Source of the DNA: a virus
IMG/VR virus record: IMGVR_UViG_3300035698_014406
Coordinates: 1-23,051 of that record
Length of the DNA: 23,051 nt
Strand: one strand, 5' to 3'
Numbering within the stretch: the stretch's first letter is position 1; every line of letters begins with the position of its first letter. A program made the position numbers and the translations under genes. This document shows positions 23 to 13,430 of this stretch, piece by piece. The notes beneath the pieces are model-generated. The model was not told the DNA's origin, made no database searches, and saw nothing but the letters and a program-made list of their open reading frames with translations.

Positions 23-625
23 ATGATTATTTACAAGGCAACAAACAAATCCACCGGAATGGTTTACATCGGGCAAACTATCCTCTCCCTTAAGCAGAGG
101 AAGTCTAACCATATGAAATCCATACGTTCTGGCTCCACGACGTACTTCCATAATGCTCTCCGTAAGGGTAAGTTCGATTGGGATATTGTATGTGAAGTAG
201 CAAATAAAACTTGCCTAGATAATTACGAAGTATATTACATACAGGAATTTGGGTCACAGTGGCCTGGTGGTTACAACCTAACTTCGGGTGGAGGAACATT
301 TACGTTTAATGATGAAGTTAAACAGAGGATGAGTGATGCTCATAAGGATGTTCCACTGTCGGAAGAACATAAGAAAAGTATTAGTAAAAGTTTGATTGGA
401 AATACGAGATCCCTAGGGGTTTACCCTTCTGATGAGACTAAACAGAAGATGAGCGATGCTAAATTAGGTGACAAAAATCACTTTTACGGTAAGACTCACA
501 CTGCCAAAGTAAAAGAGCAATGCCGCGCTGCTCAGTTGGGTCACAAAGACTCTGCCGAAACTAAGCGCAAGAAGAGTGAAGCTATAAAACTTTGGTGGGC
601 AAATAGAAAAGAAAAGAGAATATAA
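23..625 (+). CDS. GIY-YIG homing endonuclease with NUMOD3 repeats
   Basis: This 200-aa protein is a GIY-YIG nuclease of the phage homing type, which cuts DNA lacking the gene so that repair copies the gene in. The N-terminus carries the GIY-like strand (IYKAT, residues 3-7), the YIG strand (VYIGQT, 14-19), the catalytic Arg26 with His30 in the following helix, the metal-binding Glu69 in NYEVYYIQEFGS, and Asn85 in GYNLTSGG. The C-terminal half has three or four NUMOD3-type DNA-binding repeats (SDAH/SDAK/SEAI segments with conserved Lys, residues about 97-195). The frame is open to the window edge, but the ATG at 23 gives the standard start of the domain. No clear Shine-Dalgarno is visible. Its stop overlaps the tail tube start by one base, so it sits directly against an essential late gene, a common homing position. 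Confidence 0.93.
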   Translation: MIIYKATNKSTGMVYIGQTILSLKQRKSNHMKSIRSGSTTYFHNALRKGKFDWDIVCEVANKTCLDNYEVYYIQEFGSQWPGGYNLTSGGGTFTFNDEVKQRMSDAHKDVPLSEEHKKSISKSLIGNTRSLGVYPSDETKQKMSDAKLGDKNHFYGKTHTAKVKEQCRAAQLGHKDSAETKRKKSEAIKLWWANRKEKRI

Positions 626-1116
626 TGGCTGAAATGTTGGCCCCCATCCCAGTAGACTTGGAGCCTAAGCGTAAGAATCGCTTTATCTTAGAGTTCCCCG
701 CAGACCTTGACTTCGCAGAATGGATGGTCCAGACAGCTGGTCGTCCAAAAATGACAATTACAGAAAAAGAAATCCCATACATGAACACTCAGACCTGGGT
801 TGCTGGTAAATACCAATTTGAAACAATGGACGTTAAATTCCTGGACGTTATTGGCCCATCAACCTCACAGAAGGTTATGGAATGGGTCCGTATGCACGTT
901 GAACCAGCAACTGGTCGCATGGGCTATGCAACAAACTATAAAAAGAACCTTACTTTGAAGATGCTTGGACCTGACGGTGCCGAAGAAGTTGAAAAGTGGG
1001 TAATTTATGGTGCGTTCATTACTAATGTTGACTTTGGTGACCTTGATCACTCGGTTGACGACCTGGCTGATATTAGTCTGACCTTGCGTTATGACAGAGC
1101 AGTATTGAGCTACTAA
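625..1116 (+). CDS. 19: Tail tube protein, T4 gp19-like
   Basis: This 163-aa protein should form the inner tube of the contractile tail, through which DNA passes. The length equals that of T4 gp19, and the layout is typical of the Phage_T4_gp19 family: a short N-terminal arm, then KNRFILEFP, a beta-rich core with VAGKYQFETMDVKF (near residues 59-72), an EWVRMHV helix region, and a C-terminal strand pair ending DISLTLRYD. The start at 625 overlaps the stop of the nuclease gene (TAATG), and the stop overlaps the next start in the same way, so all three + strand genes look translationally coupled. The sheath gene, normally its neighbour in T4-like phages, is on the opposite strand about 2.2 kb away. 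The family call is from residue pattern and context, not from a database search. Confidence 0.88.
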   Translation: MAEMLAPIPVDLEPKRKNRFILEFPADLDFAEWMVQTAGRPKMTITEKEIPYMNTQTWVAGKYQFETMDVKFLDVIGPSTSQKVMEWVRMHVEPATGRMGYATNYKKNLTLKMLGPDGAEEVEKWVIYGAFITNVDFGDLDHSVDDLADISLTLRYDRAVLSY

Positions 1117-1391
1117 TGAAAAAATCAGAACTTAAATTAATTATTAGAGAGTGTATTGTTGAAGAGGGTCGACTAGATGGAAAATCTAATCCATTTTATG
1201 TTACTGTTGATAATTGGAACAGTTCCAAAAATGGGTCGGGTGGTGGAAGTGGTGGACCATTTAATTCTAGCAAACTAAAAAAACATTTAGAATGGCTAGA
1301 AGCTCAAAATATAGAACATAAAAATGTAATATTGTGGCAATCGGTTGGGGTTCTTCCTGAAAAATATTGGCCAAAGAACAAAGACAAATAA
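1116..1391 (+). CDS. Small protein with KKSELK N-terminus, candidate internal head protein
   Basis: This 91-aa protein is of unknown function. Its first 18 residues (MKKSELKLIIRECIVEEG) belong to a leader shared with four other proteins in the window, starting at 6671, 12526, 12837 and 13430. The leader is an amphipathic helix ending in an Glu-Glu-Gly step that resembles a gp21 protease site. The body is unrelated to the other four: a polar stretch, a Gly/Ser linker (GSGGGSGG, residues about 41-48), then a helical, Trp-containing C-terminus with a Lys-rich end. The start overlaps the tail tube stop (TAATG). A strong terminator follows directly. By analogy with T4 internal proteins, the leader could be a capsid-targeting sequence; that is inference. 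The placement beside a tail gene rather than a head gene is odd. Confidence 0.75.
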   Translation: MKKSELKLIIRECIVEEGRLDGKSNPFYVTVDNWNSSKNGSGGGSGGPFNSSKLKKHLEWLEAQNIEHKNVILWQSVGVLPEKYWPKNKDK

Positions 1392-1930: not shown

Positions 1931-2233
1931 TTACTTCTTGCCGTTCTTAGATTTCTTCTTAGATTTATTAGAATCATCCTCGACAGCTTTTTCAATTTTG
2001 GAAGCAGCTTTAGCAGCCTCTACAAAGTCTACTTCTTCATCAGCCAAGTCTGGACCGAAATCCACTTCTACAACTGGTTCGAATACTTCTGCAGCCTGTT
2101 CAGCAATTTCTTTGTCCTGTTTTGGAAGGACTTGTTTCTTCAGATCTGCAACTTCACCATGGCCTGCGTTGTCCTGTCTGAGTCCTTGGTGATGGCGTTG
2201 CCATGCACTTTTTCTTGAATCGTAAATACCCAT
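1931..2233 (-). CDS. Unknown charged protein, end of the late cluster
   Basis: This 100-aa protein is not recognised. The first 30 residues are basic and His/Gln-rich (KSAWQRHHQG), the middle (about 38-84) is acidic and Ala-rich with probable helix, and the C-terminus is a Lys/Ser/Asn tail ending SKKKSKNGKK. Its ATG overlaps the stop of the preceding frame (TAATG), with AAGGG eight bases upstream, so it is coupled to the gp26-extension frame. It is the last gene of the leftward structural cluster. In tail operons a tape-measure gene normally follows the assembly chaperones, but this short protein stands there instead and the strand then switches. Function unknown. Confidence 0.7.
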   Translation of the reverse strand: MGIYDSRKSAWQRHHQGLRQDNAGHGEVADLKKQVLPKQDKEIAEQAAEVFEPVVEVDFGPDLADEEVDFVEAAKAASKIEKAVEDDSNKSKKKSKNGKK

Positions 2234-2451
2234 TACTTTTTCCCTTTCGTGGATGCTTGTTCTTGTTTCTTTTTAATTTCTTCCATCTCTTTGATTGTTC
2301 TTTGTATCATCCATTTCCTTTGGTAAATCGGTAAACGTTGTGCGTCTCCCAAACTTAACTTACAATGAAATGTCAACTGAAACAACTCTTCAAGGATGTA
2401 TTGTTTATGACTCGGAGTCAGGCCAAAAAAAGTTCGCCTGGATGGGAACAA
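2233..2451 (-). CDS. Out-of-frame extension of the gp26-like protein (probable +1 frameshift product)
   Basis: This open frame runs from 2451 to the stop at 2233. Its only upstream start is a TTG at 2451 that directly abuts GAGGAGG with no proper spacing, and no ATG occurs until residue 48. It most likely is translated by a ribosome shift from the gp26-like gene at the T run 2431-2425, contributing the 63 codons from 2424. The fused product would be about 326 aa. The encoded segment (YILEELFQLTFHCKLSLGDA, then LPIYQRKWMIQRTIKEM) resembles the short helical extensions of myovirus tail-assembly proteins, where a Trp-Met/Phe-Ile-Arg motif follows a hydrophobic helix. It ends in a Lys/Gln tail. 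The stop overlaps the next start. The role as the T part of a tape-measure chaperone pair is inferred. Confidence 0.65.
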   Translation of the reverse strand: MFPSRRTFFGLTPSHKQYILEELFQLTFHCKLSLGDAQRLPIYQRKWMIQRTIKEMEEIKKKQEQASTKGKK

Positions 2452-3214
2452 CCTCCTCGGCTACATTCCCACAAGATGTACATGTTGCATCTTGTTTCAT
2501 AATCATTCCGGGTTCAATTGATTGCATATAATTTCTAAATGCACGTGAATCCTTTGCGATCATGGTAGAGACGAACTGTCGGACCTGATTTTGATCTTCC
2601 ATTCCGTTAACCTCTTTAATAACTTTAAACATTCTCAGTGATAGAGAATTGTCTACCTGAGATTGTAATTTCTTTTTTCTTGAATTTGTTGTCTTCAAGA
2701 TGTCCAATTCATCTTCACCATTCAGAAACTTGAACTTCACAATCTTCTTAGACACTGGAAGAGTAAATGTAAATAAACCATTTTCGTCTGGTTCTACCTC
2801 TAGCTCTTTAATGTCAAGTTCAGCCAAATTAAATTCATGTTCGAATGTTGCGTTACATTCTGAGCATTGAAGTCTGACTGGATATTCCCCACCGTATCCT
2901 GTTGTTCTCAACCACACTAGAAGTGTATTTCTGTCACCCAAAATTAATTCATCAACGTTGACTGAACGATCTTTGATTACACTCTTTAGAAGTGCACTGA
3001 TCATTTTACCAGTTTGAATTAGATTAGGAGACGTAATAATGTCTTCTTGTATTGCTGTCAAGTACTGTAATTGTAAATTTTCCTTACCAAATAGTGGTGA
3101 ACCTTTTGGGTACACTAAACCTTTAGATGGAAGCGTTACAACGTCTGATGGAATTTCAAATTCTGTAGAAGAACCTGCCGGTTTAATTGACGCCGGATTT
3201 TGCATATCACTCAT
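2405..3214 (-). CDS. 26: gp26-like baseplate hub / tail assembly protein
   Basis: This 269-aa protein matches the T4 gp26-type baseplate or tail-assembly family. It has the characteristic opening IPSDVVTLPSKGLVYPKG (residues 21-38), followed by QYLTAIQEDIITSPNLIQTGK (50-70), the IKDRSVNVDELILGDRNTLL block (80-99), and two CxxC knuckles (C117/C120 and C245/C248) that probably bind one zinc. It ends at a conserved-looking NFFWP motif (261-265). The start at 3214 has AAGGAG upstream with good spacing. The FFW codons are the slippery run described separately. By position between sheath and the end of the tail cluster, and with the frameshift, it would act as an assembly factor for tape measure or hub rather than a bulk structural part; that is inference. 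Confidence 0.82.
   Translation of the reverse strand: MSDMQNPASIKPAGSSTEFEIPSDVVTLPSKGLVYPKGSPLFGKENLQLQYLTAIQEDIITSPNLIQTGKMISALLKSVIKDRSVNVDELILGDRNTLLVWLRTTGYGGEYPVRLQCSECNATFEHEFNLAELDIKELEVEPDENGLFTFTLPVSKKIVKFKFLNGEDELDILKTTNSRKKKLQSQVDNSLSLRMFKVIKEVNGMEDQNQVRQFVSTMIAKDSRAFRNYMQSIEPGMIMKQDATCTSCGNVAEEVVPIQANFFWPDSES
2408..2431 (-). promoter_or_regulatory. Candidate programmed frameshift site
   Basis: On the - strand the gp26-like frame reads AAC TTT TTT TGG. The seven-T run (2431-2425) lets a P-site Phe tRNA on the second TTT re-pair perfectly after a +1 step, after which GGC is read in the extension frame. A small hairpin, TGACT-CCG-AGTCA (2420-2408), begins a few bases downstream and abuts the zero-frame TAA (2407-2405). 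A -2 slip on the same run would reach the same frame. No experiment is available from sequence. Confidence 0.6.
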
Positions 3215-3364: not shown

Positions 3365-5620
3365 TTACACACCTTCGTCGAAGGATGCTCCACTACCCAT
3401 AATGTTGAAGTTAATCAAGATTGCTTCGGCAGTTTTTGTAGGCTTGACATAAATCTGTCCAACCAATTGTCCGCGATCAATCATATCAGCGGTATTTGTT
3501 GTTTCATCCATGATGATTCTGAAATCATATAGGCCCTGTTTGATCTTCACACGATCAAGAATAGGCTGAACCATGTTCTTGAAGCGGTCCCATGTTTTCG
3601 AATCATTCTGCTCGAACACAAGATATTGACTTGCTCCAGCGATAACCTTCTCGATATACAGCATCATACGTCTGACGTTGATACGATCAAGAGCGGTTTC
3701 TCTGGTCTGCAATGTCTTCTGACCCCAAATTGCATATCCCTGTCCAGGCAATGTAGCAATAGGATTAATCCTGGCACCGTAAATAATGTCACGATCGTCC
3801 TGTGTCAGTTTGTATTGTGTGCGAAGCACATCAGTCAACAACCCACGATTCATTCCCGCAGGAGCGAACCAAGGATATGCAACCTGATCGGTATAAGCAA
3901 TTGCTTCCATCACTTGAGGTGTAGGTGGAATCAATACTTCCTGATTTGTGTCGGAATCGAAGATCTTAACATATGGCCAGTAAGTGGCAGCATAGTTAGA
4001 ATCCAGTCCAGCCGTCAGTGCAGCAGCACCAGTAGCAGTTGTGACATTATCGGGGAAATCCCCAACATAGAAACAGTCAGCACGTTCTTCAACCAAGTCA
4101 ATAGCGTTTCCACCGATTGTACTTGTGATTGCAACACCAGGAACTGCAAGCAGGTTGATGTCATATTCCTCAGCAGAGCGAATGGTGTCAAATGCCAACA
4201 GGTACTGAGCGACTTCTCCAGATGTAGGAGTCACGGACAAGAAGTTTCCTGTTCCACGATCAGCAGCCCATCCATCATTACCACCAGAAACTGGCACAAC
4301 AAACTTTGCATTGAAAATAGTATAATCAGTGATTCCCGAAGGACCAGGGACATAACTAGCAACTGGCGCACCGGAGTCCAAGTGGAATCCCTTAAGTGGG
4401 GCCTCATCTTCACCAACAGTCGCAGCAAGATTTCTCTGCGCTCCAGCACCAACCATCAAAACATCTTGATCTGTAAGTGCAGTATCAATTCCTAAACTCT
4501 GACGCTTGGTTGACACTGTTGTTGCATATGTAGTATTCATTGCGAACTCTGGAAGATCACCAATCAGTGTCGTACTACCAACAGTTGGATTGAATCCCAG
4601 TGGAATTCCACCGTCCAAGTTATCACCAGCAACTTCAATATAGATGTACTTAGAAATAAGTGCATAATCTGAAGTTGTTTCATCTTCACCGTCACCAATT
4701 GCACGGGCGATATAATTGTTTTCTGATTTTGTCATTGAAAGTTTGGTGAACTTTTCAAGCAACACAACGTGGTCGTTTGTATCAGAGAAATCACGCACAC
4801 TTAAAGAGAACGTTCTGTTTGTTTGATCAATATCTGAAATTTCAACCTTGATCGAACTGTTTGCAGCAGCACCATCTGAAATAGTGTGAACAGTAAACAA
4901 TGATCTACCAAGATCGGTTCCATTTGTTTCTCCAACAATTACTGGGGAAACTGATTCACTATATCCTGAAACTTCCCATGAGGTTCCTGCTACAACAGCA
5001 GCTGCTGTGAACGTAGTGGCTGAATTAATGTTTGTTCCAACCTTTGCACAGTGCTTAGGAAACACACATTGAGTTGCCATTCCATTAGTGGTTGCAGAAA
5101 CAGTATTATCTCTTGGGAAAACCGTTTCAATGTACACTGGTGAATTGGAATTTGTAAAGTTTACCCAACCTGAATAAATTGACGTTGCACCAGATGCAGC
5201 AACAAGGAATGTGTCAGCATTGGTAGGTGCAAACTCAACATCTGCAACAGCCTTGTTTGAAACGTCAACCGTAGTTCCAACGGGAGCCATAAGAACGGCA
5301 CAAGTTGTTCCACCTGAATCTTGAATAGAAATCATTCCATCTGTTCCACGTAGGGAATCAGATCCAAGTACTCTAACGATCCAAGCTTGGTTTGCATATT
5401 TGAAATAGTTCTTTGCAACATAGCCAGACAGTTGTGTTGGGCTAAGTGCACCGAAAATTTCTTTAAATTCAGCAATATTAGAAATCAGCGTTGGCTTGAA
5501 CGCTGGTCCCATTGGCATTTCGCCAACAATTGCAAGTGATGAGTCATTTACGCTTGATACGTAATATGAGAAGTCATGTTCGCGGGTGTAAACTCCCGGC
5601 GAAACGAAGATTTCGCTCAT
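3365..5620 (-). CDS. 18: Contractile tail sheath protein, gp18-like
   Basis: This 751-aa protein is the tail sheath, whose contraction drives the tube into the cell. The N-terminus (VSPGVYTREHDFSYYVSSVN, residues 6-25) is the classical sheath opening, followed by LAIVGEMPMGPAFKP and the EFKEIFGALS segment of the first domain. The middle (about 110-430) is Thr/Ser/Val-rich and beta-like, probably the exposed variable domains. The conserved C-terminal part has PWFAPAGMNRGLLTDV (near 587-602), a DRDIIYGARINPI loop, INVRRMMLYIEK, FEQNDSKTWDRF and a final strand set before IMGSGASFDEGV. It is about 90 residues longer than T4 gp18 (659 aa), with the extra length in the middle. It follows the gp15-like gene by 21 bases and is followed by a UUCG hairpin. 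Confidence 0.96.
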   Translation of the reverse strand: MSEIFVSPGVYTREHDFSYYVSSVNDSSLAIVGEMPMGPAFKPTLISNIAEFKEIFGALSPTQLSGYVAKNYFKYANQAWIVRVLGSDSLRGTDGMISIQDSGGTTCAVLMAPVGTTVDVSNKAVADVEFAPTNADTFLVAASGATSIYSGWVNFTNSNSPVYIETVFPRDNTVSATTNGMATQCVFPKHCAKVGTNINSATTFTAAAVVAGTSWEVSGYSESVSPVIVGETNGTDLGRSLFTVHTISDGAAANSSIKVEISDIDQTNRTFSLSVRDFSDTNDHVVLLEKFTKLSMTKSENNYIARAIGDGEDETTSDYALISKYIYIEVAGDNLDGGIPLGFNPTVGSTTLIGDLPEFAMNTTYATTVSTKRQSLGIDTALTDQDVLMVGAGAQRNLAATVGEDEAPLKGFHLDSGAPVASYVPGPSGITDYTIFNAKFVVPVSGGNDGWAADRGTGNFLSVTPTSGEVAQYLLAFDTIRSAEEYDINLLAVPGVAITSTIGGNAIDLVEERADCFYVGDFPDNVTTATGAAALTAGLDSNYAATYWPYVKIFDSDTNQEVLIPPTPQVMEAIAYTDQVAYPWFAPAGMNRGLLTDVLRTQYKLTQDDRDIIYGARINPIATLPGQGYAIWGQKTLQTRETALDRINVRRMMLYIEKVIAGASQYLVFEQNDSKTWDRFKNMVQPILDRVKIKQGLYDFRIIMDETTNTADMIDRGQLVGQIYVKPTKTAEAILINFNIMGSGASFDEGV

Positions 5621-6377: not shown

Positions 6378-6671
6378 CTATTTGTAGTATTCTCTGAGTC
6401 TGTTTATCGCTTCACCTAATGAAAATTTAACCCCTTTAGTGTATTGTCTATCTCCACCCACCCTGATTGAATCTTTAAATGCAACAAAAAGTCCTGGTTT
6501 GTTTGCACTGCTTAATTCTTTGTCAATCAGTTTGTAAGCGTTTGCCAATTCCTTGAGTGCTTTCTCTAGAGCCGGTTGGATCTTCTTTGCTGCCTTCTTA
6601 TCTTCTTCAGCAATGGTTCCTTCTTTGAGAAGTTCTTCTATGATTATTGCTTTTAGTTCACTCTTTTTCAT
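6378..6671 (-). CDS. Small protein with KKSELK N-terminus, candidate internal head protein
   Basis: This 97-aa protein begins MKKSELKAIIIEELLKEGT, the shared leader, and reaches the leader's end at LKE|G, a near-ideal match to the (L/I)xE preference of T4-type prohead protease. The body is unlike its relatives: a Lys/Ala-rich helix (DKKAAKKIQPALEKALKELA), then KLIDKELSSANKPGLFVAFK and a basic segment RVGGDRQYTKGVKF, ending in a helix LGEAINRLREYYK. Its ATG overlaps the preceding stop by four bases (ATGA), so it is coupled to the neck gene upstream. Small, basic and placed among virion genes, it fits a DNA-associated internal protein. Function otherwise unknown. Confidence 0.75.
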   Translation of the reverse strand: MKKSELKAIIIEELLKEGTIAEEDKKAAKKIQPALEKALKELANAYKLIDKELSSANKPGLFVAFKDSIRVGGDRQYTKGVKFSLGEAINRLREYYK

Positions 6672-12175: not shown

Positions 12176-12526
12176 TTAGCCCCAACCATTTACAATTAAT
12201 GTTTCTTCAGCTTCTTTTGGTGCATATTTAACCAACTTCCAAGTGAAGTTTTTAAATTTAGATTGAAGTTTTTTGACTGCTTTTTTAGCAGAAACAACTG
12301 ACTCATCATATGGATCGAGTCCAAAAGTAATGTAAATTGTATGGTCATCATAATATGCTCCATTCCAAATTATCTCATCATCTTTGGAAAATTCTACATC
12401 AATTGCCTTAGCAACTTTTTGGACTTCTTTATCATATTGTTTTATTTGACCCGGAAGATTTCCTTCATTCAAGAGTTCTTCTTTGATACACTCTAAAATA
12501 ATTGCTTTCAATTCTGATTTCTTCAT
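12176..12526 (-). CDS. Small protein with KKSELK N-terminus, candidate internal head protein
   Basis: This 116-aa protein begins with the shared leader, here slightly longer (MKKSELKAIILECIKEELLN, then EG), ending in LNE|G. The body contains GQIKQYDKEVQKVAKAIDVE and IWNGAYYDDHTIYITFGLDP, an alternation of helix and strand that suggests a small alpha/beta domain, then a Lys-rich helix KKAVKKLQSKFKNFTWKLVK and a final strand ETLIVNGWG. No family is recognised. It directly precedes the protease gene, three bases apart, and its start overlaps the previous stop (TAATG). If processed, the mature product would be about 94 aa. Packaging into the head is inferred only from the leader and position. Confidence 0.78.
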   Translation of the reverse strand: MKKSELKAIILECIKEELLNEGNLPGQIKQYDKEVQKVAKAIDVEFSKDDEIIWNGAYYDDHTIYITFGLDPYDESVVSAKKAVKKLQSKFKNFTWKLVKYAPKEAEETLIVNGWG

Positions 12527-12837
12527 TACTTTTTGCTCCTATTTTGAAATTTTCCTCTTTGTAATAATTTTATTGTTTCGTCAAACTTTTTATTGAACAT
12601 AAATTCATCATGTAATGTTAGAAGTTGTTTACGAGCTTTGGTCCAATCTTCCCCGTCTATGTCTGTAAAATCATCATCCTCTGTTTCTTTCCATAAATTG
12701 AAAATTTTGTCAGACAAATCTTTTCTAAGTTTCAATATTTCTTTTATTTTTTTGTCTACTTTTTTACGGCCATCGCCTTCTTCAAGCATACACTCTAAAA
12801 TAATTGCTTTAAATTCTGATTTCTTAATTGTTGCCAT
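12526..12837 (-). CDS. Small protein with KKSEFK N-terminus, candidate internal head protein
   Basis: This 103-aa protein starts MATIKKSEFKAIILECMLEEG, the shared leader with three extra N-terminal residues. Within the first 60 bases its coding DNA is nearly identical to that of the next gene at 12526 (TCAGAATTTAAAGCAATTAT against a close variant), which suggests duplication or recombination of the leader. The body is all helical and highly charged (DKKIKEILKLRKDLSDKIFN, then DWTKARKQLLTLHDEFMFNK) and ends basic (GKFQNRSKK). No family is recognised. It is coupled on both sides by one-base overlaps. Presumed cleavage is after LEE. The basic, helical, processed character resembles internal proteins of T4-like heads, though homology cannot be shown from here. 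Confidence 0.76.
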   Translation of the reverse strand: MATIKKSEFKAIILECMLEEGDGRKKVDKKIKEILKLRKDLSDKIFNLWKETEDDDFTDIDGEDWTKARKQLLTLHDEFMFNKKFDETIKLLQRGKFQNRSKK

Positions 12838-13430
12838 TATTTTCCACCTTTGGTTTTTGCAAAATCGACTGGCGATTTCTTAATGTTTAATGCGTCGAAT
12901 TGTAATATCTTGTCTATAGCTTGTTCAGCTGGTTTTATGAAGTCTTTGAATGGAATTTCATTCATCTTGCCGTTGCGATCTACAGTAGCTTCACCATTCA
13001 TATCAATATCATTCACCGTATCAATGTTGATTTCAAATTCAATGAACTGACGCTTACCAGGTTTTGCCTGGCCGGCAGCAATGTCATATGTGAAGATGAT
13101 GCTAGACGTGTCGAAGAAATCCGGATCAAATGCAGATGCTATCTTGCGTTTCATTAGATCAACATTGTGCATGAACTCTACAATAATAGAGACCGCCAAT
13201 GCTTCTGGCTCGCTTGTTGAATTTGCCTTGGCCGCTACAACACTCAGCTTGGGCTTAACCCATGACGAGAATGTAACATACAGAGCTTCAGGGCGTTTCT
13301 TATTTTCAATTGCCCCAATTTCCGCCTTCCAATTTTTATCTTTGATCTTGGCATTGACCTTTGTTCCTGGACCATACTGACCCTCTTGGATCATTTCATT
13401 GATCATCTCTCTCAATTCTGAATTGTTCAT
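12837..13430 (-). CDS. Head-cluster protein with a diverged SELK-type N-terminus
   Basis: This 197-aa protein carries a diverged leader, MNNSELREMINEMIQEG, ending in IQE|G. It is the largest of the five such proteins. The body shows a basic beta-rich start (GPGTKVNAKIKDKNWKAEIG), a strand with YVTFSSWVKPKLSVVAAK, a helix VSIIVEFMHNVDLMKRKIAS, and strands IIFTYDI and RQFIEFEINIDTVNDI, then a Lys-containing C-terminus. It looks like a folded alpha/beta domain rather than a simple DNA-binding peptide. Its ATG overlaps the preceding stop by four bases and its stop overlaps the next start by one. Function unknown; the leader suggests capsid targeting. Confidence 0.72.
   Translation of the reverse strand: MNNSELREMINEMIQEGQYGPGTKVNAKIKDKNWKAEIGAIENKKRPEALYVTFSSWVKPKLSVVAAKANSTSEPEALAVSIIVEFMHNVDLMKRKIASAFDPDFFDTSSIIFTYDIAAGQAKPGKRQFIEFEINIDTVNDIDMNGEATVDRNGKMNEIPFKDFIKPAEQAIDKILQFDALNIKKSPVDFAKTKGGK

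Follow-up and report, generated by a model that had tools for sequence, protein, structure and literature searches.

In a viral contig of 23,051 nt (IMG/VR record IMGVR_UViG_3300035698_014406, positions 1 to 23,051; the whole stretch is called the window here), a gene related to T4 gp26 ends in a conserved site at which some ribosomes are predicted to move into the +1 frame. We propose, with a probability of about 0.9, that most ribosomes translating this T4-like tail assembly chaperone (TAC) gene make a short protein, TAC-N, while a fraction slip +1 at UUU_UGG and make a longer one, TAC-NC. A preliminary description of the window had suggested a programmed +1 frameshift at this site, joining the gp26-like protein of a TAC gene to an orphan frame, and the sequence comparisons reported here support that suggestion.

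The gp26-like gene occupies positions 2405..3214 of the minus strand, and its zero-frame product is 269 aa long. The protein matches PF12322, the T4 gp26 family (E 3.8e-13; 50.1 bits against a cut-off of 24.5), as well as phrog_150, annotated as 'baseplate hub'. The 3′ end of the gene reads GCG AAC TTT TTT TGG CCT GAC TCC GAG TCA TAA. Here AAC (2434-2432) is followed by two Phe codons, TTT (2431-2429) and TTT (2428-2426), which are the putative slippery codons (2426..2431, −) and the last two codons common to about 90 relatives. The next codon is the Trp codon TGG (2425-2423, −), which would occupy the A site, and six sense codons separate the putative P-site codon from the zero-frame stop TAA (2405..2407, −). 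The P-site codon, 2428-2426, can re-pair on TTT after a +1 movement. If one T (T2425) is skipped, reading continues as GGC CTG ACT CCG AGT CAT AAA ... for 63 codons (2424-2236), giving the extension GLTPSHKQ...KGKK, and ends at the TAA at 2235-2233. This extension, TAC-C (2233..2424 with its stop, −), belongs to a second frame at 2451-2233 (−). The preliminary description had correctly placed this frame in +1 relative to the gp26-like open reading frame (ORF), located AAC TTT TTT TGG at the overlap (2434-2423) and predicted the junction NFF-GLTPSHK. It was also right that the second frame has no good start, its only upstream start being a TTG at 2451, directly behind GAGGAGG at an unusable spacing, and its first ATG being codon 48. 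Searched alone, the window extension had no significant match in Pfam or PHROGs and no tblastn match in phages.

Conservation of the site and the extension

Relatives of the gene were collected by tblastn, giving the isolates Microcystis Mel-JY01, Flavobacterium immuto, Bacillus SP-15, Listeria LIS04 and Streptococcus GXN1 and two jumbo metagenomic genomes, and by a scan of IMG/VR, which gave 597 confirmed candidates, with 80 loci kept. Seven loci came from an earlier first scan, and a hand-made consensus served solely as a search probe. The first set comprised 90 members with a readable gene end, 87 with the extension in +1 and three (L004, L082 and L090) with it in −1. With four further +1 loci, 91 of the 103 relatives examined have a homologous +1 extension immediately after the same pair of codons, and the extension was in −1 in the other 12.

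In the first set, both frames share a final Phe-Phe or Phe-Leu pair, with a Trp codon next in 84 of 90 members. The site takes the form TTTTTTTGG in 65 of these 90, TTTCTTTGG in 11, TTCTTTTGG in 7 and TTTTTCTGG in 1, and the distant forms TTTCTATTC, TTTTTCTTC, TTCTTTCGT, TTTTTTAGT, TTTTTTCAC and TTTTTTCGT occur once each. Across 82 sequences a block of 12 nt, TTYYTTTGGCCT, hardly changes, while most flanking bases vary. The +1 sites are mostly TTT_TGG or CTT_TGG (CTT_T in 11 relatives); every member of the +1 UGG class has TTT or CTT with a T after it, and TGG does not vary in the main class. At the P site, with the −1 members removed, Phe is encoded by TTT in 75/75 +1 members, compared with 554/817 (68%) elsewhere in the gene, and Leu by CTT in 11/11, compared with 577/2131 (27%) elsewhere in the gene.

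Beyond the site, the zero frame stops after 3–6 sense codons in 86 of the 87 +1 members, and the +1 frame remains open for 57–122 codons (32 in one truncated contig). Dinucleotide shuffles put the mean chance of an open extension this long at about 2% per sequence, and its presence in 87 of the 90 first-set members is far beyond chance. The +1 frame mostly encodes the pattern G[LPQ]...E..F.L.Y..G.s..e.ynlPv..R.wf..rl. When a profile was built from +1 extensions alone, with those of Bacillus, Listeria and Streptococcus and the −1 members left out, it nevertheless recovered the Bacillus, Listeria and Streptococcus extensions, with E values of 1e-8 to 3e-9 in this small test set. The extension is under purifying selection: the proportion of nonsynonymous differences was below that of synonymous differences in 60/60 close pairs, at a level equal to that of the N part, and the nonsynonymous and synonymous divergences between the window and relative L008 were 0.24 and 2.6. 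The check proposed in the preliminary description, whether relatives conserve the T run and the out-of-frame extension, was thus clearly positive, and on this comparative evidence the arrangement is a conserved expression signal. The fusion is not shown in the annotated GenBank records examined. A +1 shift would account for small frames that are orphaned or left unannotated in the genomes of T4-like phages, such as WWT39326.1 in Mel-JY01.

Alternatives to a ribosomal +1 shift

An identical junction would result from transcriptional slippage, in which RNA polymerase drops one U on the run of seven T and ribosomes then read the fusion mRNA normally; such a run is present in the window and in 64 relatives. 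This explanation is unlikely because 17 UGG-class relatives, with TTT CTT TGG or TTC TTT TGG and no T-run over four, keep the +1 extension. Distant members with TTC TTT CGT, TTT CTA TTC or CTG TTT CGC also keep it, and slippage leaves the invariance of TGG unexplained. The preliminary description had located the signal correctly, but the run of seven T is not itself required. Since TTT CTT TGG and TTC TTT TGG also serve, the essential part appears to be [C/U]UU_UGG.

We consider it more improbable still that the extension is a separate gene, translated alone from the TTG at 2451 or from another start and coupled to the upstream gene. The TTG does lie behind GAGGAGG, and some bacterial sheath-tube clusters have a DUF6760 protein, similar to the extension, encoded behind a TAC-like gene; one such protein has its own ATG. 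However, from the last stop to extension codon 10 the +1 frame contains no ATG, GTG or TTG in 26 of the 87 +1 members, and no start preceded by a Shine-Dalgarno-like site was found in 79 of the 87. Two frames separated by a normal start, the contrary outcome foreseen in the preliminary description, were thus not what these relatives showed. Furthermore, conservation starts exactly at the shift codons, and an extension in −1 occurs only together with a −1 heptamer.

A −1 shift on the T-run, or a −2 slip into the same frame as +1, would have precedent in homologous genes that use −1 at these codons and in the −2 re-pairing that homopolymer runs permit, and is very improbable. The −1 frame behind the site is closed after two codons (LA*; window 2427-2419, −), as it is in 63 of 82 members, and codon-anticodon reasoning makes −2 re-pairing impossible at TTT CTT TGG or TTC TTT TGG. 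The short −1 frame could protect against slipping the other way on the T run, or be a mere consequence of the protein sequence. Finally, a seven-T homopolymer in a metagenomic contig might suggest that sequencing added a T or that the gene has decayed. The chance of such an artefact is negligible, since independent isolates share the arrangement with about 90 contigs, many of them lack a long run, and the extension is under purifying selection.

Proposed mechanism and chaperone role

The key events in the proposed +1 shift are as follows. Most ribosomes would reach the zero-frame stop and produce TAC-N. A fraction would pause while peptidyl-tRNA-Phe sits on UUU and UGG, for Trp, occupies the A site, whereupon the tRNA would move one base forward and re-pair with UUU, perfectly at UUU and in the manner of release factor 2 (RF2) at CUU. 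Translation would resume in the +1 frame (GGC CUG ACU ...), giving TAC-NC, in which TAC-N would be followed by a C domain of 63 residues in three helices. If the two forms work as lambda gpG and gpGT do, the tape measure protein would be coated by TAC-N, tail-tube subunits would be recruited through the C domain of TAC-NC, the rarer form, and both forms would be absent from the virion.

The gp26-like gene and its extension very probably encode a TAC in its TAC-N and TAC-NC forms, a role suggested by fold predictions and gene order, because the HK97 chaperone is the best structural match and relatives place the gene between tube and tape measure. The N domain and the extension were modelled separately with AlphaFold2. 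For the N domain (predicted local distance difference test, pLDDT, 92.4), the best Protein Data Bank match by VIA-align was the HK97 tail assembly chaperone 2ob9_A, with Z 5.7 and a root mean square deviation of 4.6 over 83 residues; the next entry scored 3.8. The extension was modelled as three helices (pLDDT 92), and a fold search with this model returned no meaningful match. The gene order in L009 and L010 is sheath, tube, gp26-like gene, extension and a large tape-measure-like ORF, and that in L013 is tube, gp26-like gene, extension and large ORF; the large ORF behind the extension in relatives has 690-860 residues. A tape measure is annotated downstream in immuto, LIS04 and SP-15 (in SP-15 as 'putative tail protein'). 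The order tube, gp26-like gene, tape measure is the classical place of tail assembly chaperones.

The extensions also bear on a Pfam family, DUF6760, which 19 of 42 extensions match (best E 1.7e-4, TAC-C alignment A7). At two bacterial loci, L122 (1145-1677, +) and L123 (1456-2009, −), DUF6760 is found in sheath-tube clusters, in an overlapping frame behind a TAC-like protein of about 120 aa ('LPLGYRDGDGNLHKNGVMRLATAGDEI'). From this position we infer that DUF6760 is probably the chaperone C domain of contractile systems. No mention of DUF6760 was found in the literature searched, and the extensions now tie the family to a likely function as such a domain.

Several points weigh against a +1 shift in a chaperone gene. 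The evidence consists of homology, reading frame, site conservation, selection on the extension, neighbourhood in relatives and predicted folds, and it is from these that we infer the occurrence of the shift, its efficiency, the P-site slip and the chaperone role. The counts treat kin sequences as independent, with no phylogenetic correction. With Z under 8, the resemblance to HK97 gp13 is modest, and because Foldseek alone gave E 1.4 it is taken as support rather than proof. In the window the chaperone gene is adjacent to the sheath gene, not to a tape measure gene. Neither kind of stimulator sought was found. In 82 sequences, no conserved purine block lies 3 nt upstream that could act as the Shine-Dalgarno-like element does in prfB, and downstream structure is not conserved (mean z −0.6 in 82 members, +0.4 in the window; z −0.85 for a 101-nt fold). 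Both candidates were accordingly rejected. The preliminary description had noted a small downstream hairpin. This hairpin, TGACT-CCG-AGTCA, is present at 2420-2408, where it abuts the zero-frame stop rather than overlapping it as had been stated, but it is not conserved and folds no better than shuffles.

Shift direction, known systems and the surrounding genes

The preliminary description had noted that tail chaperones usually shift −1, which is right, and relatives of this same gene use −1 at the same codons. The extension is in −1 in L004, L082 and L090 and in the isolates PA5oct, XacN1, RAS14, Atu_ph07, 121Q, P-SSM2, Syn9, HTVC008M and PhiW-14. A canonical X_XXY_YYZ heptamer is present at these codons in 12/12 −1 members, compared with 3/91 of the +1 set (Fisher 3e-13); in P-SSM2, Syn9, HTVC008M and PhiW-14 the same Phe-Phe pair carries U_UUU_UUY, with the C domain following in −1. 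The window differs from a canonical −1 TAC site in having C_TTT_TTT, which is no X_XXY_YYZ heptamer, and a −1 frame closed after two codons. The profile built from +1 extensions only also found those of L082, L090 and L004, with E values of 2e-21 to 3e-8 (2e-21 for L082 and 1e-19 for L090) in a small test set. The −1 extensions of PA5oct, XacN1 and PhiW-14 had no significance on their own by profile (E 2.8, 0.026 and 0.08 for L102, L103 and L119), and those of L104 and L105 were marginal (E 0.006 and 0.004); for these five loci the −1 assignment rests on position, heptamer and pattern. When the N parts are placed on a tree, L082 and L090 fall inside +1 groups, and the direction labels need five changes, at least three of them forced by well supported branches. 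This tree was made without P-SSM2, Syn9, HTVC008M and PhiW-14, and its long branches make depth unsure. L090 has TTC where the main +1 site has TTT, so that the U needed by the +1 slip is gone and a −1 heptamer is completed. Streptomyces pSt2308 apparently shifts +1 at UUU_CGC. We would give even odds to a further reading, in which [C/U]UU_UGG forms a separate class of +1 site on a sense codon, not reported before and used across a large T4-like branch, and in which changes of one or two bases (TTT_TTT_TGG to T_TTT_TTC_TGG) have flipped the family several times from one direction to the other, +1 or −1, at this same pair of Phe codons with the C domain kept. The family would then show the direction of a shift being changed at the same codons while the protein is unchanged.

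The proposed arrangement resembles that of phage lambda gpG/gpGT, for which work by Levin in 1993 and Xu in 2004 reportedly described a −1 shift. The likeness would lie in a two-frame overlapping chaperone gene, placed between tube and tape measure in relatives of the window gene, and in a low-level extension product, whereas the shift is −1 in lambda and would be +1 in the window clade. The bacterial prfB gene, which encodes RF2, has an autoregulatory +1 site, CUU_UGA, with a Shine-Dalgarno-like element three bases upstream. As in prfB, the P-site CUU or UUU (window, TTT_T) would re-pair +1 on UUU and the A-site codon starts with UG. Unlike prfB, the window class has the sense codon UGG instead of a stop, no conserved Shine-Dalgarno-like element and no autoregulation. 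With no visible stimulators, [C/U]UU_UGG would be a simple natural site for studying bacterial +1 frameshifting.

The TACs of T4-like phages (T4 gp26/gp51) and their frameshifting were reportedly the subject of work by Vladimirov, Gautam and Davidson in 2022 (Virology 566:9-15). The window gene shares with these the family PF12322 and would likewise have short and long forms, but the window clade would shift +1 at [C/U]UU_UGG, whereas T4 has two genes and no shift. T4 gp51 is collinear with N plus C (hhalign E 0.009, single pair), and three extensions match phrog_634, the gp51 family, 'baseplate hub assembly catalyst' (E 0.002). This is in line with the separate genes for short and long forms that some T4-like phages carry, according to the account of Vladimirov 2022 in PMC10885494. 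A later paper cites the same work for −1 poly-T signals (PMC12846349). As far as these accounts go, frameshifting in T4-like chaperones is apparently already known, as −1. The +1 UGG class and the repeated switch of direction were not found in the literature searched, which lay outside the full text of Vladimirov 2022, and by this comparison both appear to be new.

A +1 shift has been proposed in haloarchaeal TACs, in HSTV-2 and the HF1 group at TTT-CGC (PMC5009743, PMC7230728). These TACs likewise lie between tube and tape measure, and the distant members L005, L013 and L107 share TTT_CGN. They are, however, from archaeal viruses, and the UGG class is distinct from theirs. The Listeria phages PSA, A118 and A500 shift +1 at CCC_UGA in tsh, and PSA at CCC in cps (PMC5009743). 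Here too +1 shifts occur in phage structural genes and direction differs among related genes, but the genes are others, the codon is for Pro, and the products are extended capsid and major tail proteins and no chaperone. T4-type tails have long been counted as an exception to two-form chaperones made by frameshifting, and a 2016 review described the GT shift as widely conserved 'except T4' (PMC5009743). On our reading, this T4-like branch keeps the two-form system and reads it by shifting +1 on a sense codon.

The window, a T4-like contig, carries genes for sheath, tube, Gp23, portal and terminase. The gp18-like tail sheath gene (3365..5620, −; PF04984 and PF17482) lies directly upstream of the chaperone gene. 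It is a single ORF of 751 aa, while its homologue in L008, the closest relative, consists of two ORFs (412-1992 and 2014-2709, +), reflecting either a sequencing error or a real break. On the other side of the chaperone gene, TAC-C ends in TAATG, as the preliminary description had noted, and this stop overlaps the start of the next ORF (1931..2233, −), which encodes 100 aa with no assigned function and has a counterpart at the same position in L008 (3979-4323). The gp19-like tail tube gene (625..1116, +; PF06841) is nearby on the opposite strand, flanked by a GIY-YIG/NUMOD3 homing-endonuclease-like ORF (23-625, +) and a Vsr/DUF559-like endonuclease ORF (1455-1916, +). No tRNA genes were found within the window. 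An RtcB-type RNA ligase (PF01139; 22146-23036, −) lies at the contig end. Five small ORFs, at 1116-1391 (+), 6378-6671 (−), 12176-12526 (−), 12526-12837 (−) and 12837-13430 (−), have a common N-terminus of about M(K)KSELKxIIxExxxEE, which recalls the cleavable head-targeting leaders of T4 internal proteins, and may be a set of internal head proteins.
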